Assembly: GCA_016192135.1 (NCBI GenBank)
Contig: JACPUR010000020.1
Coordinates: 1-14,793, forward strand
Reading direction: 5' to 3'
Origin: Candidatus Tectomicrobia bacterium
GTDB taxonomy: Bacteria; UBA8248
Length of the DNA: 14,793 nucleotides
Part shown: in pieces, positions 2,353 to 11,945 of the stretch
How the letters are laid out: each line of letters opens with the position of its first letter
Numbering within the stretch: the stretch's first letter is position 1
Made by a program: the position numbers and the translations under genes
The notes under the pieces: model-generated
Seen by the model: only the letters and a program-made list of their open reading frames with translations
What the model was told of the DNA's origin: nothing
Database searches by the model: none

Positions 2353-3492
2353 TCAGGTGAACGTGATCGTCAGCTCGTCGTCCCCGGCGCTGCGGTTCAT
2401 GACGAAGGGCGCCTCGTAGGCGAGGAGGCCGTTCCGGTCGCCGAAGCCCGCCCCCGTGTACTGGCACTTGGGGGCGGCGAGGGTGCAGATGTTGCCGGGC
2501 TGGGAGCCGATGACGGCGGCGAGGGCGGCCTGGGCGCCCGCCTCCCAGTCCGCGAAGAGGTCCTTCGTGCCCTTGAGCACGGCCTCGGGGTCGAAGCTGC
2601 CGGAGGGCGCGCGGCGGGTGACGAGGGCGCCGATGTGGCCTCCCGGAACGTTCGCGCTCTGGCGGAGCACCACGGTGTTGTTCAGGGCGAGGGTCAGGCG
2701 CGAGATGTCGAAGTTGAAGCCGGCGAAGGAGAAACCCGTCACCATGACGGGCGCGGGGATCACCTCCTGGTAGGCCGAGCCCTCGACCAGGGCGGCGTCC
2801 GAGACGAGGAAGTCGGCCGCGGTGAAGTCCCAGTTCACGGCGGGCACGCCGTCGAGCGGGAGCTCGATCGAGAAAGTCCCCATGCAGCCCAGGTAGAGGA
2901 TGCGGAGCCCGTCCAGATAGACGGTGATGCATGCGCGGGTGAAGGCGGCCTTGTCCGAGGTGGGCTTGTAGGCGACGGAGGCGCCGGCCGCCACCGCCTG
3001 CGACATGCCGCAGGCCCGGAAGAGGACGCCGTAGTCCGGCGGCACCCCGGCCGCGCCCGAGCCGCGCAACTCGGTGGCGAAGGAGAGCCGGGCCGAGCGC
3101 TTGCCCATCACGGCCGGGAAGGGTGAGAGGCTCGCGTCCTTCACCGCGCGCTCCAGGCGCTCGATGTTGAGGTCGTGCCGGAAGCTCCCGGCCCGGAAGA
3201 GCTCCGCCGCCGGGGCGGGCCGGTCGAGGAGGTAGCGCGTCCCCGCCGCCGGCTGGACCGTCCAGGCGGGGGTCACGGTGAGGGTGTCGCTCAAGGCGTC
3301 GAAGTCGGAGACGGCGCGCTGCTGGCCCGCGCCCGCCCCCCGGATGGTCTTGAGGATCGAGCCGTTCCAGAAGTCGTCCGCCTCGGTCAGGGCGGCGTCC
3401 GCGAGGGTCGAGGCCCCGGCCGAGTCCGCCGTCAGCTCCCGTTCCTCCGTCGCCCCGATGGTCTGCCGGTCCCTGAACAGCAAGTCGCCCAT
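2353..3492 (-). CDS. Phage major tail tube protein with inserted N-terminal domain
   Basis: A 379-aa protein located after the tail completion and terminator candidates and before the chaperone and tape measure, the position of the siphophage tail tube subunit. The C-terminal two thirds (about 100-379) are beta-rich, consistent with a tube fold. Residues about 26-93 hold a module common in phage structural proteins: TLADAALTEADDFWNGSILK, then GAGAGQQRAVSDFDALSDTL and TVTPAW...YLLDR. This makes it longer than simple tube proteins. The start at 3492 follows AAGGGAG with 8-nt spacing. The function is inferred from order and architecture; it could instead be a related decoration or minor tail protein. 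Confidence 0.6.
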   Translation of the reverse strand: MGDLLFRDRQTIGATEERELTADSAGASTLADAALTEADDFWNGSILKTIRGAGAGQQRAVSDFDALSDTLTVTPAWTVQPAAGTRYLLDRPAPAAELFRAGSFRHDLNIERLERAVKDASLSPFPAVMGKRSARLSFATELRGSGAAGVPPDYGVLFRACGMSQAVAAGASVAYKPTSDKAAFTRACITVYLDGLRILYLGCMGTFSIELPLDGVPAVNWDFTAADFLVSDAALVEGSAYQEVIPAPVMVTGFSFAGFNFDISRLTLALNNTVVLRQSANVPGGHIGALVTRRAPSGSFDPEAVLKGTKDLFADWEAGAQAALAAVIGSQPGNICTLAAPKCQYTGAGFGDRNGLLAYEAPFVMNRSAGDDELTITFT

Positions 3493-3547
3493 GATGCGAT
3501 CTCCCTTTCGTTTGGCCGCCTGCGGCGGCGCGATGATGTCCTGGTCT

Positions 3548-3606
3548 GTAGGGGCGGCCCCCTGTGGCCGCCCTCCACCGGGGCAGGCACGGGGGCCTGC
3601 CCCTAC
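3548..3606. repeat. Two adjacent palindromic GTAGGGGC-type elements
   Basis: The first (3548-3573) begins GTAGGGGCGGCC and ends GGCCGCCC around a CCCTGT loop. The second (3580-3606) pairs GGGGCAGGC with GCCTGCCCC and ends in CCCCTAC. The same pair recurs at 6535-6603, and a relative lies at 5621-5676. They fill the gap between the tail tube and tail-terminator genes. Their nature (REP-like, small non-autonomous mobile element) is unknown. Confidence 0.75.
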
Positions 3607-3619
3607 AGGTCGGTTTGCG

Positions 3620-4153
3620 TCACCCCCTCGCGATCCGCTCGACGGCCTCGATGCGGATCTCGGCCGCGTGGCAGAGGACCGCCCCGAAGCGGCGCGCCTC
3701 CACCGCGTCGACCCGGGGCGGCTGGAGGCGCTCCAGCGTGGCCACCTTCGGGGCGCCCTGCGCGTCGAGGAGCCGGAGCGCCCGGTTGTCCCGGAAGCGG
3801 TCGCACACCGCCTCGACGAGGTCCTGGAAGGCCAGCTCGCTCCCCGTCCCGTCCTCGAGGCCCATCACCCCGAAGAGGAGGAAGGTGTGCGCCCGCCGGT
3901 TCACCCCCGCGGGGACGAAGCCACCCGGCTGGGAGGAGGCCGCCGAGCCCAGCCCCTCGCGCGCCGCCTCGCGCGTCAGCACCCACCCGCGGACCTGGCT
4001 GCGCCCGTCCGGGGCGGTCCAGCGGAAGAAGTCGAGGTACTTCGCCAGATCGGCGGCGTAGCGCTGGTAGAGGTGCACGCGCCCGATGTTCGCCACGGCC
4101 CCGACCTCCGCCACGATGCCCTCGCCGATCTGCCGGTAGTTCGATGCGGCCAT
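3620..4153 (-). CDS. Putative phage tail terminator / minor tail protein
   Basis: A 177-aa protein between the gp10-like and tail tube genes, the usual slot for the tail terminator that caps the tube and joins it to the head. It begins MAASNYRQIGEGIVAEVGAV and ends VLCHAAEIRIEAVERIARG. The mixed alpha/beta pattern and size suit terminators, but I see no diagnostic motif. ATGs occur at 4159 and 4153. GGGGAG abuts the first, giving the second a 6-nt spacing, so 4153 is chosen. The role is inferred from order alone. Confidence 0.5.
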   Translation of the reverse strand: MAASNYRQIGEGIVAEVGAVANIGRVHLYQRYAADLAKYLDFFRWTAPDGRSQVRGWVLTREAAREGLGSAASSQPGGFVPAGVNRRAHTFLLFGVMGLEDGTGSELAFQDLVEAVCDRFRDNRALRLLDAQGAPKVATLERLQPPRVDAVEARRFGAVLCHAAEIRIEAVERIARG

Positions 4154-4176
4154 CGTCATCTCCCCGGTATCGTTTT

Positions 4177-4238
4177 GTAGGGGCGATGCTTGTCATCGCC
4201 CTCAGGCCACGGGGGGCGAACACAAGGTTCGCCCCTAC
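4177..4238. repeat. Two GTAGGGGC-type palindromic elements
   Basis: A first unit GTAGGGGCGATG-CTTGT-CATCGCCC is followed at about 4213-4238 by GGGGCGAAC-ACAAG-GTTCGCCCCTAC. The second overlaps the 3' end of the gp10-like gene: its TAG stop (4235-4237) lies inside the conserved TAGGGGC of the element. Confidence 0.7.
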
Positions 4239-4747
4239 GAAAGGCCCTCTCCCCCCAGCGCCGCCGCGATCTCCTCCCCCAGCCGCCTCGCGCGCTCCTC
4301 GATGCGGCCCTGGCTCGCCTCGAGCGCGCCGCGGAACATGTGCCGCCCCGGCATGCCCCGCCGGGCGATGGCCCGCGCCACGAGAAAGGAGACGCGCCCG
4401 GCCTCCCGGTCCGGGGCGCCCGTGCGCCTCCGCACCCAGGCGTGGAGGGGCGTCCCCGGCCGCCAGGGCGGGAAGCCCCCCGGCGCGCGGCCCTCCTCGG
4501 CCGCGGCGGCGTAGGGTGAGAGGGAGAAGACCTCGCCCTGAAGCTCCTCCACGGACCCGCCCCGCACCTCGCTCCGGATGGAGCCGCGGAGCGCCCCCGT
4601 GACCCCGCCCGGGGCCCGGGCCTCGACCTCGGCGCGGAGCATCCCGGCGATGTCCGCCACCGCCCTCTCCGCGAGACGGAAGAGGATCTCCTCGCCTTCC
4701 CCCTCGAGGAGCGGGCCTTCGATCTCTTGGTGCCATTCGATGGGCAT
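4235..4747 (-). CDS. HK97 gp10-like tail completion / minor tail protein
   Basis: A 170-aa protein of the HK97-gp10 type. These act at the head-tail interface during tail completion. The recognisable core is an N-terminal amphipathic helix (RLAERAVADIAGMLRAEVEA), then RAPGGVTGALRGSIR (the family pattern P...G.L..SI), SLSPYAAAAEEGRAPGGFPP (the Y..Y.E.G motif) and a C-terminal GRHMFRGALEASQGRIEERA helix. The start MPIEWHQEI at 4747 follows CGGAGG with 4-nt spacing; a longer frame from 4789 lacks a ribosome site and runs into repeat sequence. The stop codon falls inside a palindromic repeat, so the extreme C-terminus may have been set by insertion of that element. Confidence 0.75.
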   Translation of the reverse strand: MPIEWHQEIEGPLLEGEGEEILFRLAERAVADIAGMLRAEVEARAPGGVTGALRGSIRSEVRGGSVEELQGEVFSLSPYAAAAEEGRAPGGFPPWRPGTPLHAWVRRRTGAPDREAGRVSFLVARAIARRGMPGRHMFRGALEASQGRIEERARRLGEEIAAALGGEGLS

Positions 4748-4771
4748 CTCGCCTCCGATGGCCGTTCTTAT

Positions 4772-4870
4772 GTAGGGGCCTATGGCCATACGCCCCGAGG
4801 ATGTGTCCGTCCGATGCGGAGATCCGAGGGGCCGATCCCTTTGTAGGGGCGACCGGCCGGTCGCCCCTAC
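4772..4870. repeat. GTAGGGGC-type palindromes, including a perfect 28-bp one
   Basis: 4772-4796 is an imperfect unit (GTAGGGGCC-TAT-GGCC-ATACGCCCC). 4843-4870 is a perfect 28-bp palindrome whose left half is GTAGGGGCGACCGG. The identical 28 bp recurs at 6056-6083. They occupy the 147-bp gap between the connector and gp10-like genes. Confidence 0.8.
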
Positions 4871-4894
4871 GGACGTTTCCGCTTCACGATGTTC

Positions 4895-5593
4895 CTACCG
4901 CTCCGCCGGGCCGCCGTGGGTGAGGTAGTCGCCCCGGCCCGGGGAGAGAGCGTCGTCCCAGTCGAGCGTCGCGCCCGAGGCCCCGGGGGCCTGGGCGGCG
5001 TGGGCGTGGTAGCGGCGCTCGAGCTCCCGCGCGAGCTTGGTGTACTCGGCCGCCTTGCTCTGGTGATCCACGGCGTCGGCCGAGAGGGTGGGCGCCGCCG
5101 TCTGGGCGAAGCGCCGGGCCAGCACGTGGCAGCCCTCGGCGGCGGCGAGCCAGGCGACGGCCCTCTCGTCGTTCGCGGGGACGGTGCTGGAGACCGCATC
5201 GGCCATGTGCGGCAGGGTGTAGAAGAGCCGCGCCGTCTCCCCCGCCCCGGGGGTATGGCGCAGCAGGCGCAGCTTTTCGGCGGAGGTGCCGGGGGCGTAG
5301 AGCGTCCAGTCGCGCCTTTGCAGGTAGACGGGCTCGCGCCGGCCGTGCGGGTACTCCACCGCCTCGACGACGGAGAGGGCGCGATCCCAGCCGGCCGGGA
5401 GGGTGAAGTCGTAGGCCGCGCCGTCCCCGGCGTAGTCCGCGTGGGCGCGGCGGGGGCGGTCCTGGCTGTAGCGCGCGAGGGCGGCGCGGACGAAATCCGC
5501 CCAGTCCGCCTCGGCTGGGGCGAACTCCGCCGGGAGCGAGCCCGCCTGGAGGAGGGCCTTGGCGGCGTCGATGAAGGTCTGGAGGTTGGCCAT
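4895..5593 (-). CDS. Putative head-tail connector / head completion protein
   Basis: A 232-aa protein starting MANLQTFIDAAKALLQ, with AAGGAA 5 nt upstream of the ATG at 5593. Notable segments are YDFTLPAGWDRALSVVEAVE, YLQRRDWTLY, ETARLFYTLPHMADAVSSTV and a long C-terminal helical region (AWLAAAEGCHVLARRFAQTA ... AAEYTKLARELERRYHAHAA). A beta region followed by helices, between the small head genes and the gp10-like gene, fits an adaptor or head-completion protein. I do not recognise a named domain; the assignment comes from position and architecture. Confidence 0.5.
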   Translation of the reverse strand: MANLQTFIDAAKALLQAGSLPAEFAPAEADWADFVRAALARYSQDRPRRAHADYAGDGAAYDFTLPAGWDRALSVVEAVEYPHGRREPVYLQRRDWTLYAPGTSAEKLRLLRHTPGAGETARLFYTLPHMADAVSSTVPANDERAVAWLAAAEGCHVLARRFAQTAAPTLSADAVDHQSKAAEYTKLARELERRYHAHAAQAPGASGATLDWDDALSPGRGDYLTHGGPAER

Positions 5594-5620
5594 GGATTCC
5601 TTCCGGTGTGACCGGTTCGG

Positions 5621-5755
5621 CAGGGGCGGCTCTCTGAGGCCGCTCCGCCGGGGCAGGCACGGGGACCTGCCCCTACGGATGCGTGCGCGTTCAGCAAATT
5701 CATCCACCCCTCCCCCAACCCCTCCCCTTGATAAGGGGAGGGGCGAAGGGGTGGG
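5621..5755. repeat. Repeat cluster between connector and 91-aa gene
   Basis: 5621-5649 is a GGGGCGGC...GCCGCTCC unit, followed at 5650-5676 by GGGGCAGG...CCTGCCCCTAC. At 5719-5743 CCCCTCCCCTT-GAT-AAGGGGAGGGG forms a perfect 11-bp stem within a longer CACCCC...GGGGTG setting. The second type recurs at 6630-6654. Together they fill nearly the whole 163-bp gap. Confidence 0.75.
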
Positions 5756-5756
5756 G

Positions 5757-6032
5757 TTACGTGAATTCCAGGTAGAGCTTGGGCCCCGTGCCGGCGAGGA
5801 CGATGTGGAGCCCCGCGCCGAAATGGATTCCTCCGGCGGGGATGGCGAGGTCCGCGCTGGTGTTGGCGGGAGCTTTCACGGTGCGGAGGATTTTTCCCGC
5901 CGCGGAGGTGTTGTCGTAGAGGACGGCCGAGGCGGCGTCCGCCCCTGCGGTGAGCAGGCCGCCCAGGAGCTTTCCGCTCCCCGTCCGGGCGGTGCCGGTC
6001 GAGGCGATCTCGGTGGTCTCGGATGGGTGCAT
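5757..6032 (-). CDS. Small phage structural protein (91 aa)
   Basis: Begins MHPSETTEIASTGTARTGSG and contains AVLYDNTSAAGKILRTVKAP, then ANTSADLAIPAGGIHFGAGL and a beta-rich end (KLYLEFT). The pattern LYDN.SA.GK.L..V.AP.N.S.D...P..GI.F..GL is one I recognise from small unnamed proteins in phage head modules. AAGGAGG is 4 nt before the ATG. It is likely a decoration, head-fibre or similar virion protein; a precise role cannot be given. Confidence 0.6.
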   Translation of the reverse strand: MHPSETTEIASTGTARTGSGKLLGGLLTAGADAASAVLYDNTSAAGKILRTVKAPANTSADLAIPAGGIHFGAGLHIVLAGTGPKLYLEFT

Positions 6033-6055
6033 GGGTCCTCCTTGCGCCCTGCCCT

Positions 6056-6083
6056 GTAGGGGCGACCGGCCGGTCGCCCCTAC
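6056..6083. repeat. Perfect 28-bp GTAGGGGC palindrome, identical to 4843-4870
   Basis: The left half is GTAGGGGCGACCGG and the right half its exact reverse complement. It is the main content of the 70-bp gap between the 136-aa and 91-aa head genes. Confidence 0.85.
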
Positions 6084-6102
6084 GAAGGCGCGGGCAAATT
6101 GA

Positions 6103-6513
6103 TCAATTCGGCGAGAACTCGACCACCACGCCGAGGGGCGGGAGGGCGATGCCGGTCCCCACCTTCTCGATCTGGAGGGCGAGCTGGGTGCCCTGGACCA
6201 CGGCCAGGGGCGCGGCCGGGGCGTAGAGGACGAGACCGGCGACGCCCAGGCTGTTCCCGCTGGTGAGGTCGTAGTTCGCGACTTCGGCCGCCCCGGCGCC
6301 GTTCGCGCCGCGGTTGACGAGGTTCAGGTGCCGGGTGTTGGTGTCGGCGCCCGTGACGGCGGCGCCGGGGATGACCTTCACTTTCTCGATCCTGCAGTTC
6401 ACCGGGGCCTCGAAGACGACGAAGTCCGCCGTCGGGTCCGCCGCCGCCACGGGCGGGAGCGCCGCCTGGCGGTCGTGCGTTCCCGGGGCGTCGTATGCCT
6501 GCCGCTGGGACAT
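6103..6513 (-). CDS. Putative head decoration / small capsid-associated protein
   Basis: A 136-aa protein immediately after the capsid gene, where decoration or head-stabilising proteins usually lie. It begins MSQRQAYDAPGTHDRQAALP and is rich in beta-prone segments (VVFEAPVNCRIEKVKVIPGA, TRHLNLVNRG, GTQLALQIEKVG, GVVVEFSPN). It has the FEAP.C.I..V..IP.AA.TG.DTN pattern of phage virion beta-barrel proteins. The start at 6513 has AGAGGAGG with 6-nt spacing; the longer upstream frame translates the repeat at 6535-6561 and is rejected. The exact role is inferred from position. Confidence 0.55.
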   Translation of the reverse strand: MSQRQAYDAPGTHDRQAALPPVAAADPTADFVVFEAPVNCRIEKVKVIPGAAVTGADTNTRHLNLVNRGANGAGAAEVANYDLTSGNSLGVAGLVLYAPAAPLAVVQGTQLALQIEKVGTGIALPPLGVVVEFSPN

Positions 6514-6534
6514 GTGTGCCTCCTCTTTTTCCCC

Positions 6535-6654
6535 GGGGCAGGCACGGGGGCCTGCCCCTACGAATCCCGTTATTTCTGTAGGGGCGGCCCCCTGTGGCCG
6601 CCCTGTCGGGTGCTCACCCCTCCCCTCCGCCCCTCCCCTCATCAAGGGGAGGGG
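6535..6654. repeat. Repeat cluster downstream of the capsid gene
   Basis: 6535-6561 (GGGGCAGGC...GCCTGCCCCTAC) and 6578-6603 (GTAGGGGCGGCC...GGCCGCCC) match the pair at 3548-3606. 6630-6654 (CCCCTCCCCT-CATCA-AGGGGAGGGG) matches 5719-5743. The cluster fills the 173-bp gap between the capsid and 136-aa genes, and could act as a transcript-stabilising or attenuating hairpin set below the most heavily expressed gene. Confidence 0.75.
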
Positions 6655-6686
6655 ATGGGGGTGGGGTGATTGAATTGGGGTGCTAT

Positions 6687-8633
6687 TTACGCCGGGGCGC
6701 CGCGGTAGAAGGCGCGGTGGTCGAGCACCGCGCCGCCGTAGACGTGGCGGATCTTGTAGCGGAGCTTGTCGGCGCTGAAGCCGCTGCCCGAGGCGGGGTT
6801 GTCCTCGATGAAGAGCTCGGGCTCCTGCTGATCGTCGAGGAAGCCGATCTCGATGGTGTCCATGAGGGCCGGGTCGGCGACGAGGAACCAGTCGTTCGCG
6901 TCCGTCAGCTCGGGCGCCCAGAGGGGCTCGATCCCCAGCCGGTTGATGACGCTCGGCTGGGTGGAGTTGGCGCTCGAGACGACCTTCACCGCCGACTGGG
7001 TGACGTCGAAGGCCTCCTCGAGCAGGGCCGTCGGGTGGACGAGGTAGCGCGGCTGGGCCTGGGAGGCCGCGGCGGCCCCCTCGCCCGGGAAGGCCTGGGC
7101 GCCCATGGCCTTGATGCCCGCCACGGCGTTTGCGTAGGTCAGGGCGTTCGCCGAGGTGTTCGCGTGGTTGGCGTGGAAGAGCGCCACGCCGTCGTAGATC
7201 GCGGGGTTCGCGGCCAGGAAATCGAAGACGAACTTGTTCAGCGTGCGCTGGGCCGCGCGGGCGAGCCGCCGGGGGATCATGCGGATGGCGCCCATGTCGT
7301 CGTTCTGGATCATCTCCCAGGTCAGGTCCTCGATGCCCCCGCGCTTGGCCACGGCGTAGGTCACCGCCTCGTCCGAGGGCGGGGCCAGGACCGGGTAGGT
7401 GGCCTGCTCGGCCACGGTGGCGAGGTCGCCGTAGCCCCCGACGCGCACCCGGCGGTTGGTGCGGAAGTCCTTCACCGGCACCACGGCCGAGACGATCTTC
7501 CGCCAGAGGTGGAAGCGGTCGTCCCGGAAGTCGCGCAGCAGGGCCCGGCGGATGGAGTCGCCGAAGGCCTCGCCCCAGGTGGCCGTGGTCATGGAGGCCG
7601 AGAGGCGGCGGATGCCGTTCCAGTCCTCCCCGGCGCGGTGGTAGTGGAAGGTCTCGGCGAAGAAGGCCTGGGGCGTGAGCCGGCGCCCGGTGAAGTCCTG
7701 GAAGGCCTCGCTCAGGAAGCGGTAGGGCGCCGCTCCCTCCCGCGCGCGGGGCGCGGGGTCCCAGAGGCCGTCCAGGGCGGCGAGCTTGCGGTCCGCCTCG
7801 TCGCGCACCCCTTCGAGCCTCGCCCCGAAGCCCCGGAGCGCCCCGCTCGCCGTGAGCTTCTCGAGCGTCGCGGCTTCGAGGCGGATGGCCTCCTCCAGCT
7901 CCTCCTCCGTCTCCCCGGCGAACTGCCGCTCCAGCTTCTCCCGGACGGGGGCCGGCAGGCTCGACGCCGCGAGCCGCACCGCCAGCTTCTCGCCCCAGGA
8001 ACCCTCCCCGCCCGCGGCGAGGGCCCGGCCCTCCTCCGAGGCAGGCTTCCCCAGCTTTTCCCGCATCTTCTCGAACATGTCCGTCTCCCCTTCAGGCGGG
8101 CGCCCGGCGGGAAGCCCCAGCAGGGCCCCACCCAGCCGCCCCTTGTGAACGACGTCCACCGAGTGGACCGCCTCGATCGTCAGTATGTGAAGGACGGGCC
8201 TGCCGTCCTCCTCGCGGATCTCCCCGCGCCCCAGCACGTCGAACGAGAAGCCGAAGGGCTCGGGGATGCCGCGCTCGAGCGCGTCGTGCGCCAGCGCGTG
8301 GAACCAGGCCGCCGACTTGGCCACGGCGAAGGTGGAAACGAGGCCCTCCTCCGCCAAGCGCACGCCGCGGTGCCAGCCGATGAGATCCTTGATGTCCGGG
8401 GCGCCCGAGCGGGCGTGGTTGGCGAAGGCCTGGGCCCCCTCGAACAGGGGCGCCGCCTGGGCCAGCACCTCCCGGGGCAGGAACCAGTCCCCCTCCCGCG
8501 AGGGCCCGGGCCGGGCGATGAGCACCTCGAAGTCCCAGGCGCCTTGCCCGCCCTCCTTCGCCGCCCGGAGCACCCCGCCCTGGAGCCGGATGGCCCGGGC
8601 GCGGACGGGCTTTCGTGCGAAGAAACCTCCCAT
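6687..8633 (-). CDS. Prohead protease / major capsid protein fusion
   Basis: A 648-aa polyprotein. Residues 1-180 resemble a phage prohead protease: FANHARSG (H73), PFGFSFDVLG (S130) and ILTIEAVHSVDVV (H157/D160) are candidate catalytic positions. Residues about 181-310 are charged and helical, like a scaffold (MFEKMREKLGKPASEEGRAL, REKLERQFAGETEEELEEAI). Residues about 310-648 form the capsid domain of the Mu gpT-like/HK97-fold type (FFAETFHYHRAGEDWNGIRR, DGVALFHANHANTSANALTY, PRYLVHPTALLEEAFDV, ANDWFLVADPALMDTIEIGF, KLRYKIRHVYGGAVLDHRAF). The start MGGFFARKP at 8633 has AGGAGG upstream. An open frame continues to 8783 but holds the leader element. The protease is expected to act in cis or trans during prohead maturation. 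No portal or terminase precedes it. Confidence 0.85.
   Translation of the reverse strand: MGGFFARKPVRARAIRLQGGVLRAAKEGGQGAWDFEVLIARPGPSREGDWFLPREVLAQAAPLFEGAQAFANHARSGAPDIKDLIGWHRGVRLAEEGLVSTFAVAKSAAWFHALAHDALERGIPEPFGFSFDVLGRGEIREEDGRPVLHILTIEAVHSVDVVHKGRLGGALLGLPAGRPPEGETDMFEKMREKLGKPASEEGRALAAGGEGSWGEKLAVRLAASSLPAPVREKLERQFAGETEEELEEAIRLEAATLEKLTASGALRGFGARLEGVRDEADRKLAALDGLWDPAPRAREGAAPYRFLSEAFQDFTGRRLTPQAFFAETFHYHRAGEDWNGIRRLSASMTTATWGEAFGDSIRRALLRDFRDDRFHLWRKIVSAVVPVKDFRTNRRVRVGGYGDLATVAEQATYPVLAPPSDEAVTYAVAKRGGIEDLTWEMIQNDDMGAIRMIPRRLARAAQRTLNKFVFDFLAANPAIYDGVALFHANHANTSANALTYANAVAGIKAMGAQAFPGEGAAAASQAQPRYLVHPTALLEEAFDVTQSAVKVVSSANSTQPSVINRLGIEPLWAPELTDANDWFLVADPALMDTIEIGFLDDQQEPELFIEDNPASGSGFSADKLRYKIRHVYGGAVLDHRAFYRGAPA
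8076..8078 (-). other. Possible internal start giving scaffold-capsid without protease
   Basis: An in-frame ATG (MFEKMREKL, residue 186 of the fusion) sits about 7 nt after AGGGGAG, at the junction between protease and scaffold regions. Initiation here would give a 463-aa scaffold-capsid, echoing nested scaffold genes such as lambda Nu3 within C. A good ribosome site at a domain boundary is what is seen; its use is inferred. Confidence 0.4.
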
Positions 8634-8717
8634 TTCCCCCTCCTCTCTCCGCTTTTCCCTGCTGGGGTGTGCCTCGTGCGCCCGTGGGGCGCGGGCGCGC
8701 CCGGACGGACGCGCAGA

Positions 8718-8793
8718 GGGAATGTAGGCCGGATCGGGGTAAAGCCATTTACCGCAATTTCGTGCAATTTCGCGCACCTTCATGTTCAGCGGG
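8718..8793 (-). repeat. Duplicated leader element, copy A (with small ORF start at 8783)
   Basis: This copy reads MKVREIARNCGKWLYPDPAY from an ATG at 8783 and contains CGCGAAATTGCACGAAATTG and the inverted repeat GGTAAA-TGGC-TTTACC. It matches 1494-1570 in the same orientation. Here the frame stays open into the capsid gene, but the good ribosome site at 8633 argues that the capsid starts there. It lies at the boundary between the phage block and host cdaA, which starts at 8876 on the other strand. Confidence 0.6.
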
Positions 8794-8875: not shown

Positions 8876-10147
8876 ATGGCGGAGTGGCTGGAGAGGGTGA
8901 AGGATTTAATCGTCCGCATCCCCTGGAGCCAGGTGATCGACATCGGGATCATGTGGTTCCTGGTGCACCAGGTGTACGTGCGCTTCCAGGGGACGCAGGC
9001 CATGCGCCTGCTCGTGCGGGTCTTTTTGCTCTTCGTGGCCTACCTGGCCGCCCATTCCGCCAATCTGATACTGACCTCCTTTCTGCTCTGGGCGCTGTGG
9101 CTGGCGGCGCTGCTGCTTTTCCTCGTGAACTTCCAGGGTGAGATCCGCCGCATCGCCATGCAGCTCAGGCCGGTGAGCCGCCTCTCGGTGCTGCTCAGGC
9201 GGGCGCGGCGGGTGGTCCTGCCGGAGGAGAGCGTGCTGGGGCTGGCGGAGTCGGCTTTCGCCCTGGCGCGAAAGGGCATCGGCGCTCTTTTCATCCTGGA
9301 GCGGCGCGACCCGGTCCTCCCCCTGCTGCGCAGCCCGGGGGAGCAGATCGGGGCCGAGATGCGCCCGGCCCTCGTCGAGACGCTCTTCCTCTACAACGCG
9401 CCCTATCACGACGGCGCGGTGCTCATCGGGGAAGGGAAAATCCAGCGCGCCGGCTGCGTGCTGCCCTTGTCCGAGAACTCGGACCTCCCCCCCGTCTACG
9501 GCACCCGGCACCGCGCGGCCATCGGGATCAGCGAGGCCTCGGACGCGCTTGGGGTGGTGGTATCGGAGCAGCGGCGCGAGGTGTCGGCCGTGGAGCATGG
9601 GGACATCCACACGATGGAGACGGCCGGCGAGCTGGCCACTTGGCTCTCGGCCCGCCTGCGGGCGCGCGCGGAGCCGAAGGGGGCGGCGGAGGCCCTGAAG
9701 GAGGCGCTGCTCTCGAACTGGCGGTCCAAGACGGCCACGCTCGCGGCCGTGTGCCTGCTCTGGCTCGTGGGCTCCTACCAGCGCGGAAACCCACGCGACA
9801 ACCTCTTCAGCCGGATCGCCCCAGGGGTGGAGGAGACGTACTCGGTGCCGGTTTCCTACTACAACCTGGAGAAGGGGCTCGCCCTGGGCGCCGTGCCCCA
9901 CGAGAGGGTGAAGGTGAGGCTGCGCGCCCGGCAGGACACGCTCAACTTCCTCGACCCGGGCCGCCTCCGGGTGAACGTGAACCTCGCGGGCCGCTCCGAT
10001 GGGCTGGCGCGGATCGACCTCTCGGCCCGCAATATCGACCTGCCCGTCGAAATCCAGGTGATGGAAATCCAGCCGCCGGAGATCTCCGTCCCCATCGTGC
10101 GGCGCGGGCCGCGCCCGTCCGCGAAACCCTCCCCGCCGGCCCCCTAG
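8876..10147 (+). CDS. cdaA: Diadenylate cyclase (CdaA type) fused to a YbbR/CdaR domain
   Basis: A 423-aa membrane enzyme that makes c-di-AMP from two ATP. N-terminal hydrophobic segments lie at about 17-33, 43-60 and 62-85. The DAC domain spans about 115-265 with both signature motifs: YHDGAVLI (DGA at 179-181) and GTRHRAAIGISEASDA (RHR at 211-213). A fourth hydrophobic segment (about 287-300, TLAAVCLLWLVGS) is followed by a YbbR domain at about 320-405 (VPVSYYNLEKGLALGAVPHE, VRVNVNLAGRSDGLARIDLS), which should face outward. In Firmicutes CdaA and its YbbR-domain regulator CdaR are separate adjacent genes; here they are one chain. The ATG at 8876 begins the canonical N-terminus, with a G-rich weak ribosome site; upstream in-frame sequence is not CdaA-like. 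Confidence 0.9.
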   Translation: MAEWLERVKDLIVRIPWSQVIDIGIMWFLVHQVYVRFQGTQAMRLLVRVFLLFVAYLAAHSANLILTSFLLWALWLAALLLFLVNFQGEIRRIAMQLRPVSRLSVLLRRARRVVLPEESVLGLAESAFALARKGIGALFILERRDPVLPLLRSPGEQIGAEMRPALVETLFLYNAPYHDGAVLIGEGKIQRAGCVLPLSENSDLPPVYGTRHRAAIGISEASDALGVVVSEQRREVSAVEHGDIHTMETAGELATWLSARLRARAEPKGAAEALKEALLSNWRSKTATLAAVCLLWLVGSYQRGNPRDNLFSRIAPGVEETYSVPVSYYNLEKGLALGAVPHERVKVRLRARQDTLNFLDPGRLRVNVNLAGRSDGLARIDLSARNIDLPVEIQVMEIQPPEISVPIVRRGPRPSAKPSPPAP

Positions 10148-10198: not shown

Positions 10199-10227
10199 TT
10201 GACGCTTCCCTCCGCGCGCCACATATT
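10199..10227 (+). promoter_or_regulatory. Sigma-70-like promoter of cassette 1
   Basis: TTGACG (10199-10204), a 17-bp spacer, then CATATT (10222-10227). The same layout, with the same -10 and the same spacer, precedes cassette 2. The start site is expected near 10234. Confidence 0.6.
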
Positions 10228-10266
10228 GAGATTGGACAAGGAAAAGGGAGGGATGAGGGAGTAAGG

Positions 10267-10380
10267 CGCACCCGGCGCGGTGCCGGGGGGATGGGAGTCC
10301 CGGGGCGGGCGCCCCGCGCGGGCTCCTAGGGGAGCGATGGTGGCAGGCGCTCCAAGACCGGCGGTACCACAAAGGGGAGG
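10267..10380 (+). ncRNA. Structured leader RNA, cassette 1 (riboswitch-like, unassigned)
   Basis: Stems in order: CCCGGC/GCCGGG (10271-10276 with 10282-10287); a stem GGAGTCC/GGGCTCC (10294-10300 with 10320-10326) enclosing the perfect hairpin CGGGGC-GGGC-GCCCCG (10301-10316); and GGAGCG-ATGGTGGCAGG-CGCTCC (10331-10353). Then AAGAC and a purine-rich Shine-Dalgarno sequence. The paralogous leader at 10771-10887 keeps every stem, with different sequence in the second one. Conserved unpaired motifs are GGGGGGATG before that stem and ATGGKGGCAGR in the last loop. I cannot match it to a riboswitch class I know. Confidence 0.55.
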
Positions 10381-10384
10381 ATGC

Positions 10385-10510
10385 ATGGAGAGAGAAAGGC
10401 ATCGGGTGTTGCAGGTGCAGTTCCAGGCCTCCTCGGCCCCGCGCGCTGGCCGGGCGGGGAGGGAATACCGGATCCTTCCGGATGGCCGGCGCACACTGAC
10501 GGGCGGCTAA
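10385..10510 (+). CDS. Arg-rich small protein, cassette 1 (41 aa)
   Basis: Sequence: MERERHRVLQVQFQASSAPR then AGRAGREYRILPDGRRTLTG G. It aligns without gaps over 26 residues with the cassette-2 small protein (M-E/K-R-E/S-R-H/N-R ... F-AS-A-R-GRAGR). Three aligned Arg codons differ only synonymously (AGA/CGG, AGG/CGA, CGG/CGA), which supports translation. AGGGGAGG lies about 4 nt upstream. A competing ATG at 10381 opens a frame running into the terminator and is not conserved. Highly basic; function unknown. It may be an effector, RNA-binding or leader peptide. Confidence 0.55.
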   Translation: MERERHRVLQVQFQASSAPRAGRAGREYRILPDGRRTLTGG

Positions 10511-10696
10511 CCGTCCGGCGCGGCCAACGGGGACATTCTCCCCGGCCGCAAGAGCCAGAGAGCACATCGAGCGGGGTGTGATGCCCCGCTCGCTTTTTGG
10601 GGAAATTTCCTGAATTCGGAATTTCTTTCCCCCATCCCGCGCTCCGCTTCAGGTTTTTTCCTGATAAGAAAATCGCTTCCGGACATGGCGGACCGC
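10511..10696. other. Spacer: cassette 1 3' UTR and AT-richer stretch
   Basis: From 10511 to the terminator at 10568 the transcript can fold GCGGCC...GGCCGC around GGGGA/TCCCC. After the terminator, 10599-10696 is AT-richer than its surroundings, with an inverted repeat GAAATT...AATTTC near 10602-10626. I see no gene here. Confidence 0.5.
10568..10598 (+). terminator. Rho-independent terminator of cassette 1
   Basis: CGAGCGGGG-TGTGATG-CCCCGCTCG forms a 9-bp stem followed by CTTTTT. Stem and loop size match the terminator at 11085, so the terminator is part of the duplicated unit. Confidence 0.85.
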
Positions 10697-10725
10697 TTGC
10701 GCGGGCGGGCTGGGCTTCCCATATT
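10697..10725 (+). promoter_or_regulatory. Sigma-70-like promoter of cassette 2
   Basis: TTGCGC (10697-10702), a 17-bp spacer, then CATATT (10720-10725). It matches cassette 1 in spacing and -10 sequence. The start site is expected near 10732. Confidence 0.55.
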
Positions 10726-10770
10726 TTCAGTGAGGGCAAGAACGTCCCAAGAGCCAAGCCACGCATGCGC

Positions 10771-10887
10771 GGCTTGCACCCGGCGGTTGCCGGGGGGATG
10801 AGAGCCCGCGAGCCGGGTGAAAAGGAATTACTCCGGTTCGGGCGCGGCTCTCAGAGGAGCGATGGGGGCAGACGCTCCAAGGGTGCA
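10771..10887 (+). ncRNA. Structured leader RNA, cassette 2 (riboswitch-like, unassigned)
   Basis: An outer stem TGCACC/GGTGCA (10775-10780 with 10882-10887) closes the element. Inside are hairpin CGGC-GGTT-GCCG (10781-10792), an 8-bp stem TGAGAGCC/GGCTCTCA (10799-10806 with 10846-10853), an inner stem GAGCCGG/CCGGTTC (10810-10816 with 10833-10839), and GGAGCG-ATGGGGGCAGA-CGCTCC (10856-10878). Cassette 1 keeps the same order with compensating changes. A further hairpin (CAAGCC/GGCTTG around 10755-10775) precedes it. The closed multi-stem form next to a strong ribosome site suggests a ligand- or protein-responsive leader. Confidence 0.6.
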
Positions 10888-10920
10888 GGAGGAAGACCAG
10901 CCTGCAAGGAGGTGGTCGCC

Positions 10921-11013
10921 ATGAAGCGGAGCCGAAATCGAGAAACGCGGGCCGAGTTCCTGGCCTCCCTGGCCTCACGCGTCGGCCGGGCGGGGAGGGT
11001 CCTGGAAGGCTGA
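10921..11013 (+). CDS. Arg-rich small protein, cassette 2 (30 aa)
   Basis: Sequence: MKRSRNRETRAEFLASLASR then VGRAGRVLEG. It is preceded by a near-perfect AAGGAGGTG ribosome site with about 6-nt spacing. It is the paralogue of the 41-aa product of cassette 1; the conserved core is R-R-R...F-AS-A-R-GRAGR, with a divergent C-terminus. The DNA of the last shared block (GGCCGGGCGGGGAGGG) is identical, so this part may also serve an RNA role. The ribosome site could be partly paired by GACCA/TGGTC (10894-10916), a possible switch. Function unknown. Confidence 0.6.
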   Translation: MKRSRNRETRAEFLASLASRVGRAGRVLEG

Positions 11014-11078
11014 CGGCCCATGACGGGGCGGATATCCGCCCCCTTTCCGGCGAGCGAGCCGGATGAAAAAGAGAACCG

Positions 11079-11116
11079 AAAAAGGAGCGGGGCGCAATGC
11101 CCCGCTCTCTTTTTTT
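11079..11116 (+). terminator. Terminator of cassette 2, bidirectional with the toxin gene
   Basis: GAGCGGGG-CGCAATG-CCCCGCTC (11085-11107) is followed by TCTTTTTTT on the plus strand. On the minus strand the same stem is followed by CTTTTT, 13 nt past the stop of the convergent toxin gene, so it can terminate both transcripts. Confidence 0.85.
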
Positions 11117-11128
11117 GCCTTTTGTCCC

Positions 11129-11413
11129 TTACAGGCGCTTGTCGACGAAACGGTCGAAATCGGCGTGCGCCCCGATGAATATCCAGAAATAATCCTCCCC
11201 TTCGGCTTCAGCCACCGCCCGGTATTGCAAGGTAACCCGCACCTCAATGTAAGACTTGGGGCGATTCTTCAGCCGCTGCGGGATTTTCCGATGCAGGCTG
11301 GGGTGGTTTTGATCTTTCTTGAAGAGCGCGAATTGCTTATTGGCCGCCCGCTGAACCATGGGAGGAAGAGCATTGTACAGCGCGATAAAGGTGGCCGAGC
11401 GTCGGCTTCGCAT
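11129..11413 (-). CDS. RelE/ParE-like toxin of a putative type II TA pair
   Basis: A 94-aa basic protein. The C-terminal half follows the RelE/ParE-superfamily pattern: HPSLHRKIPQRLKNRPKSYI, EVRVTLQYRAVAEAEG and DYFWIFIGAHADFDRFVDKR, matching the usual S-R-V..R-YRA and W-GHA-YD strands. Such toxins usually cleave mRNA or act on gyrase; which applies here is not evident. The ATG immediately follows the TAG stop of the upstream gene with no spacer, indicating translational coupling. The terminator at 11079-11116 lies just downstream. Confidence 0.65.
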   Translation of the reverse strand: MRSRRSATFIALYNALPPMVQRAANKQFALFKKDQNHPSLHRKIPQRLKNRPKSYIEVRVTLQYRAVAEAEGEDYFWIFIGAHADFDRFVDKRL

Positions 11414-11884
11414 CTAGTCCATATCGAACACGCGGCCCTCGGCTTTGTCGCGCTCTGCCGCGTCCAGAATTCTCTGGAAACCGGGGGAATCGTAATTCCA
11501 CTCCTCTTGAAGATTCTTGAGCAGTTCGTGGTATTTCTGGGCGAGTTCCTCGCATCCCTTGATCTTCCACCCCCGGCTTTCCAGGTGCCCGCACAGTTCC
11601 AATAGCTGTCTTTCCAGTTGAACAAGCATTTCGAACCTGGCGACGAGAAGCTGCTCGCCTTCTTGGCGCCGCGCCTCGGTAACCCGATCGGCCAACCCGG
11701 CGTGGAAAAAAGCATCCGAGTCGGCGGTCATGTCGTGAAAGGCACTCGCCCGGCTCAGGCTCACCTCCAGCTCCCGGACAAGCCGCGCCCTCTCGTGGTC
11801 CACCTCCCACCGTTCCTTCTGCTGCCGCAACATCTCGTTTTCGATGGAGAGGACTCTCATCAGTGGGTCGGAAATCGTGGGCAT
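11414..11884 (-). CDS. Coiled-coil protein, putative antitoxin partner
   Basis: A 156-aa acidic, mostly helical protein (MPTISDPLMRVLSIENEMLR ... QLERQLLELCGHLESRGWKI ... SPGFQRILDAAERDKAEGRV). Heptad-like segments run at about 10-50 and 70-120. It precedes the toxin gene in the usual antitoxin-first order. No helix-turn-helix, ribbon-helix-helix or Phd-type DNA-binding motif is apparent, and it is longer than typical antitoxins. The start at 11884 has GAGG 6 nt upstream; an earlier ATG at 11929 lies within the promoter spacing. Function rests on the gene pair. Confidence 0.5.
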   Translation of the reverse strand: MPTISDPLMRVLSIENEMLRQQKERWEVDHERARLVRELEVSLSRASAFHDMTADSDAFFHAGLADRVTEARRQEGEQLLVARFEMLVQLERQLLELCGHLESRGWKIKGCEELAQKYHELLKNLQEEWNYDSPGFQRILDAAERDKAEGRVFDMD

Positions 11885-11916
11885 GGCATTCCTCGATAGG
11901 CTCAATTCCTGCTGCG

Positions 11917-11945
11917 AAACTATCGGCAAGCCCCGCCCTTGTCAA
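11917..11945 (-). promoter_or_regulatory. Promoter of the putative TA operon
   Basis: On the minus strand, TTGACA (11945-11940, perfect -35), a 17-bp spacer, then TAGTTT (11922-11917). The start site is expected about 25 nt before the ATG at 11884. Confidence 0.6.

Follow-up and report, generated by a model that had tools for sequence, protein, structure and literature searches.

The Downstream-peptide RNA of cyanobacteria is a conserved leader RNA tied to open reading frames (ORFs) of 17 to 100 residues, which belong to an unknown family and show synonymous changes (PMC2864571). This motif, assigned to the glutamine riboswitch class (RF01704), is the closest described kind of element to the one analyzed here, with which it shares the combination of a conserved RNA and a small ORF. 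The DNA under study is a stretch of 14,793 nucleotides from a Candidatus Tectomicrobia bacterium, referred to as the window, which is contig C20 of source genome G000 (3.9 Mb, 41 contigs). Its positions 10199 to 11116 hold two related, self-contained transcription units, unit A (10199 to 10598) and unit B (10697 to 11115), each of which consists, in this order, of a TTGnnn-17-CATATT promoter, leader hairpins, a Shine-Dalgarno (SD) region, a micro-ORF, and an intrinsic terminator. The Downstream-peptide RNA is a 5' untranslated region ahead of its ORF, whereas the units studied here have a variable leader and an H-type pseudoknot within the ORF itself; RF01704 had no match in the window, and the leader 5' of the ORF is not conserved across the family as an aptamer would be. 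The first-pass annotation, made from the window sequence alone, had matched the pair to no known class, and this agrees with a search against Rfam 15, which gave no match in the window at the gathering cut-off and, at a relaxed threshold, a best match (E = 0.029) far below that cut-off.

Other known systems are similar in single respects. Like the dual-function small RNAs SgrS/SgrT, SR1/SR1P, and RNAIII, the units are short, self-terminated transcripts that apparently combine an RNA and a small protein. In SgrS/SgrT, SR1/SR1P, and RNAIII, the ORF lies for the most part apart from the regulatory section of the RNA, whereas here RNA fold and codons overlap and several peptide heads occur on one chassis. 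With frameshift-stimulating pseudoknots, the units have in common the H-type geometry, an onset about 8 nucleotides (nt) past a conserved codon block and, in several units, an A-rich third loop, but they lack a conserved slippery site and a longer product. Transfer-messenger RNA (tmRNA) also carries a short reading frame beside pseudoknots in a stable RNA, but the units have no tRNA-like ends and possess their own SD and ATG; a search of the window for tRNA and tmRNA found none. The comparison set for the phylum comprised 18 draft genomes, namely metagenome-assembled genomes labelled Ca. Tectomicrobia or Nitrospinae (the same 18 at order, class, and phylum level), and the presence of an ordinary tmRNA above the cut-off in 13 of them rules out that the units replace tmRNA. 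A tmRNA above the cut-off was not found in G000 (97% complete), G005, G010, G011 (95%), and G016.

The alignments identify the conserved core of the units as the micro-ORF together with an H-type pseudoknot that covers its 3' half, whereas the leader lies outside this core. The pseudoknot within the ORF is the central feature of the family and had been overlooked in the first-pass annotation. It starts about 8 nt past codon 12 and is formed by two helices, S1 of 7 to 8 bp, with CCTCCC-type and GGGGAGG-type arms, and S2 of 6 to 10 bp. In most type B copies (unit types are defined below) and in the copies of genus g2, the stop codon lies inside the 3' strand of S2. Taken together, S1 and the 3' hairpin P5 were paired in 92.3% of cells, a result reached by 0 of 500 shuffles. 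For S2, 95.2% of the cells of alignment A7 were paired, with a covariation score of 0.264 (0 of 500 shuffles), and slid controls did not exceed 53%. S2 was first spotted in folds of the same units and then counted, and the units left out of A7 are independent of that alignment only; 13 of these 18 units had an S2 of 7 to 10 contiguous pairs, as exemplified by GCGCCGGCC/GGCCGGCGC, GCATCAGCC/GGCTGATGC, and TGTCAGCC/GGCTGACA. Three of the 18 are near-identical g2 units closely related to aligned ones, and the combined p-value of the left-out set is given no weight, since it presupposes an independence that is lacking. The S2 figures rest on a fixed-column count and a fixed-position test and not on the automatic pseudoknot finder, which chose other helices in G10_A, G15_A, G15_B, G16_B, and G10_B3. 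In genus g2, loop 1 has gained one base and loop 3 has lost one; the frame moves by +1 and is then restored, and the knot is kept. Three type C units contain an additional SD-ATG-knot copy in which the ORF is broken or divergent (MREPK*, MRVIN*, and one of 18 residues) and both helices can form.

The first 12 codons carry a coding signal. Three main heads were distinguished, namely, RNRVLQVQ (type A), RNRETRAE (type B), and GKxSKFPGA (type C), and within each type the head sequence is constant across genera. Substitutions in codons 2 to 12, counted by codon position, amounted to 51/23/83 for type A and 50/47/141 for type B, third positions thus taking the largest share. In a coding test based on 1000 column shuffles, which keep the column content and destroy the frame, the in-frame score of codons 2 to 12 was reached by 0, 0, and 7 shuffles for types A, B, and C, respectively, and that of codons 13 to 26 by 103, 130, and 41. 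These results indicate that selection for the encoded protein acts on the head and far less, if at all, on the second half; protein-level selection on the ORF, a criterion applied to dual-function small RNAs, is thus indicated at the sequence level for all three types by the codon 2 to 12 tests. The gap-free match of the two window ORFs, to which the first-pass annotation had drawn attention, is real, but in the second half it is attributable to the RNA pseudoknot rather than to protein selection, and the first halves belong to two different peptide types. Searches with the peptides in Pfam, PHROGs, NCBIfam, and PDB gave no useful match, the only hit in PHROGs being one weak, unnamed family (E = 0.014).

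Three covariance models were used to trace the units: R1 for the leader, R2 for the short form, and R3 for the ORF region, the last built from A7. R3 matched both window units (E = 1.7e-33 and 2.4e-19), and the units can also be aligned pairwise over most of their length, which shows that they are paralogues. The earlier description of two paralogous tandem cassettes, each with its promoter, an ORF of 30 to 41 codons, and a terminator, was thus borne out by coordinates (Table 1), alignment, and shared model, and its proposal of independent transcription with conservation of both RNA and peptide gains support from the comparisons above. R1 and R2 brought up copies in further genera; a match in L074 proved false, since it sits inside a coding region. 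R3 detected units in 16 of the 18 genomes at E < 0.001 and a very weak match in one more, with none in G012. The small ORF is present in nearly every homologue. Viral contigs, phages, and plasmids contained no convincing unit, and one exact-pattern scan of GTDB contigs returned only Candidatus Tectomicrobia bacterium RIFCSPLOWO2_12_FULL_69_37 and uncultured Nitrospinae bacterium FO_M_Nitrospinota_01, the pattern being that of the leader and not of the conserved core, so that copies in other phyla could escape it. The units form an undescribed multi-copy family of about 32 members, many of them closely related, so far from a single small bacterial phylum, for which we know of no cultured models.

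The genomic setting depends on the unit type. Type A units (RNRVLQVQ or close) directly follow cdaA in G000, G001, G002, G010, G011, G015, and G017, and the two further genomes of the window's genus also have the tandem pair downstream of cdaA. In this genus the second unit is of type B (RNRETRAE or close), which elsewhere occurs as a dispersed single unit with varied neighbor genes. Type C (GKxSKFPGA...) takes second place behind type A in G010, G011, G015, and G017 and stands behind a degenerate first unit in G014, and in genus g2 a B-like unit (MISTINRFSRAETPPSPAPSHQPGGEEDKG or close) is found downstream of cdaA. Considering any type, cdaA was found in 16 genomes and is followed by a unit in 15 of these, although in one case all that is left is a degenerate first unit; G005 has the cdaA end, together with the unit, on another contig. 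Two type B units, both from one genus, are flanked by a glyoxalase-like gene and flagellin (gene names assigned by eye). In two genomes of one genus, a type B unit precedes flagellin by a few hundred bases (L076 2226-2741 and L077 2015-2830).

The layout of promoter, ORF, knot, and terminator, the coding signal of the head, the RNA signal of the knot, and the varied heads that paralogues carry on one chassis are apparent from sequence comparison. We give about an even chance to the reading that the units are dual RNA-micropeptide genes in which translation and pseudoknot folding are mutually exclusive. A sigma-70-like promoter would give rise to a transcript of roughly 330 to 400 nt, with the unit's own terminator as its 3' limit. 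From a strong ribosome site, a short ORF would be translated, the first 12 codons of which form the conserved, Arg-rich head, and the knot beginning about 8 nt further on would cover the remaining ORF, usually including the stop codon. Having read the head, a ribosome would sit right at the knot, which further reading would melt; because a translating ribosome must melt the knot, translation and folding would exclude each other. As the most probable mechanism we infer a pause of the ribosome at the knot edge, brought about by the head itself or by a factor or ligand that acts while the head is being read, and the balance between the knotted and the ribosome-occupied state may set either the amount of peptide or the RNA surface exposed to a partner in trans. 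Since a terminator comes next and the region beyond it holds no consistently placed gene, the product is expected to act as peptide, RNA, or both. The dual reading would account for the separate conservation of head and knot, for knot copies that survive a broken ORF, and for the several heads per chassis.

A number of observations weigh against this reading. The pseudoknot is deduced from covariation among the units of one phylum, many of which are close kin. Outside A7, S2 has just 6 pairs in G11_A and G11_C, is interrupted by mismatches in G2_A and G15_C, and is missing in G10_B4, one of the 18 left-out units. In G17_A an early stop lies inside the knot, which is nevertheless kept, and in the extra copies of the C units S2 is individually weak (p 0.04 to 0.14). 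Applied to the g2 copies, which are near-identical and leave it without power, the coding test gave no significant result (186 of 1000 shuffles). Furthermore, inspection of a 13-unit alignment revealed no conserved slippery heptamer, and no recognised arrest motif was seen.

With a probability well below even, the units may represent a new bacterial gene class, in which a ribosome on the head is held at a knot within the ORF and translation competes with folding, so that the transcript serves as sensor or effector, with interchangeable heads providing specificity. The overlap of code and knot, the multiple heads, and the copies with a broken ORF are natural separations of RNA from peptide function that can be tested by recoding. 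Such genes would widen the known range of RNA-peptide genes, and they point to an unexplored regulator in this phylum.

A possible alternative, to which we assign a lower probability, is that the units are mainly trans-acting structured small RNAs, in which the peptide is without a task and the ORF is kept because loaded ribosomes shield the RNA or set the timing of its folding. The pseudoknot-like copies that three C units retain although the ORF before them is broken or divergent, the knot kept in G17_A despite the early stop, and the C-terminal half of the peptide, variable and frame-shifted in g2, are in line with this idea, but the strong synonymous bias in codons 2 to 12 of types A and B and the constancy of the heads within each type across genera argue for a selected peptide.

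It is unlikely that the Arg-rich peptide is an RNA-binding product that acts as phage lambda N does on boxB, with its own transcript as a conceivable target. The head B sequence of L069, RNRETRAEKKA, resembles the lambda N arginine-rich motif RRRERRAEKQA, and many terminator loops are GNRA-like. However, the searches in Pfam, PHROGs, NCBIfam, and PDB provided no support, with neither a profile nor a sequence match to N proteins; heads A and C are unlike that motif, and some terminators lack the GNRA-like loop.

The first-pass annotation had favored a riboswitch-controlled or RNA-peptide system and had guessed at a link to cyclic di-AMP (c-di-AMP). Control of a small peptide gene by a riboswitch leader, possibly in response to c-di-AMP, is very doubtful. 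In several genera, P1 hardly varies among units of types A, B, and C, P1 and P2 are common to many units of these types, and a unit adjoins cdaA in nearly all genomes. However, the conserved RNA is the part outside the leader: the leader is short and plain in L151 and of other kinds in L148-L150, with ORF and pseudoknot kept, and genus g2 has a different leader in which a P2-like stem alone is retained. The copies that R1 and R2 brought up thus exclude the leader as the common core of the family, and since its hairpins differ or are absent in relatives that keep ORF and knot, a leader riboswitch is not the common principle; the terminator behind the micro-ORF, moreover, leaves no further gene in the transcript to control, and Rfam gave no match. 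Of the shared leader stems described earlier, those named do exist, but the middle (insert) stem with its compensating change is restricted to some units of the genus of the window. The possible link to c-di-AMP is supported by position only, but type B copies elsewhere stand beside unrelated genes. Least probable is an ordinary attenuation or leader-peptide element or a frameshift cassette: the short ORF, the pseudoknot about 8 nt past a conserved codon block, and the terminator would suit it, but no gene follows in the same transcript, the neighbors vary, and no conserved slippery heptamer was seen.

Table 1. Features of the two units and their conserved upstream neighbor in the window
Feature	Position	Strand	Remark
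cdaA-type diadenylate cyclase (DAC + YbbR)	8876-10147	+	Conserved upstream neighbor of units
Unit A promoter TTGACG-17-CATATT	10199-10227	+	Promoter scan and pattern search
Unit A leader P1 CCCGGC/GCCGGG	10271-10276/10282-10287 (leader 10271-10353)	+	Not conserved family-wide
Unit A insert stem GGAGTCC/GGGCTCC	10294-10300/10320-10326	+	
Unit A leader P2 GGAGCG/CGCTCC	10331-10336/10348-10353	+	
Unit A Shine-Dalgarno region GGGGAGGA	10374-10381	+	Sequence
Micro-ORF A, 41 codons, MERERHRVLQVQFQASSAPRAGRAGREYRILPDGRRTLTGG	10385-10510	+	Conserved head, codons 2-12, ERERHRVLQVQ
H-type pseudoknot within ORF A, S1	10428-10435/10455-10462 (knot 10428-10492)	+	
Pseudoknot of ORF A, S2 GCGCTGGCC/GGCCGGCGC	10443-10451/10484-10492	+	
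Unit A 3' hairpins P5, P6	P5 10498-10515, P6 10518-10549	+	
Unit A intrinsic terminator	10568-10592	+	
Unit B promoter TTGCGC-17-CATATT	10697-10725	+	Pattern search; missed by stricter scan
Unit B leader P0	10755-10760/10771-10776 (leader 10755-10878)	+	
Unit B leader P1	10779-10784/10789-10794	+	
Unit B insert stem TGAGAGCC/GGCTCTCA	10799-10806/10846-10853	+	
Unit B leader P2	10856-10861/10873-10878	+	
Unit B Shine-Dalgarno AAGGAGG	10906-10912	+	
Micro-ORF B, 30 codons, MKRSRNRETRAEFLASLASRVGRAGRVLEG	10921-11013	+	Conserved head KRSRNRETRAE
H-type pseudoknot of ORF B, S1 CCTCCCTG/CGGGGAGG	10964-10971/10991-10998 (knot 10964-11015)	+	
Pseudoknot of ORF B, S2 CGTCGGCC/GGCTGACG	10980-10987/11008-11015	+	Stop TGA 11011-11013 within S2 3' strand
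Unit B 3' hairpins P5, P6	P5 11025-11042, P6 11047-11062	+	
Unit B intrinsic terminator	11084-11108	+	Terminator score on both strands

The promoters are notably uniform across the family: TTGnnn-17-NATATT (or NACATT), with a spacing of exactly 17 nt, was found in 29 of 32 units. The promoter scan recovered that of unit A alone (0.1 expected by chance), since its threshold of 4 matching bases out of 6 per hexamer excludes the TTGCGC of unit B. The -10 hexamer NATATT, mostly CATATT (10222-10227 and 10720-10725 in the window), is unusually constant at 17 nt from TTG and may represent a promoter type of this phylum. The terminators lie directly behind the units, and the downstream gene is not consistent from unit to unit. 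In most terminator loops, a GNRA-type sequence is followed by a pyrimidine (GCAAY, GNGAU), a uniformity that seems higher than terminators would be expected to show.

Other genes surround the units in the window. Between the cassettes and an SNase gene, a ParE-like toxin gene and an unnamed upstream partner are encoded on the minus strand (11129-11929); as the ParE-like gene does not occur at that place in L018 and L019, it is probably an insertion in this genome. On the other side, phage-like head and tail genes (Phage_capsid_4, HK97-gp10_like, Phage_tube_2) occupy 2353-8783 on the minus strand, divergent from the adjoining cdaA. This cluster is possibly a long-kept or domesticated prophage or a gene-transfer-agent cluster. 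In G006 (L110), a reading frame similar to the N-terminal part of the capsid-fusion protein of the window is likewise located beside cdaA.
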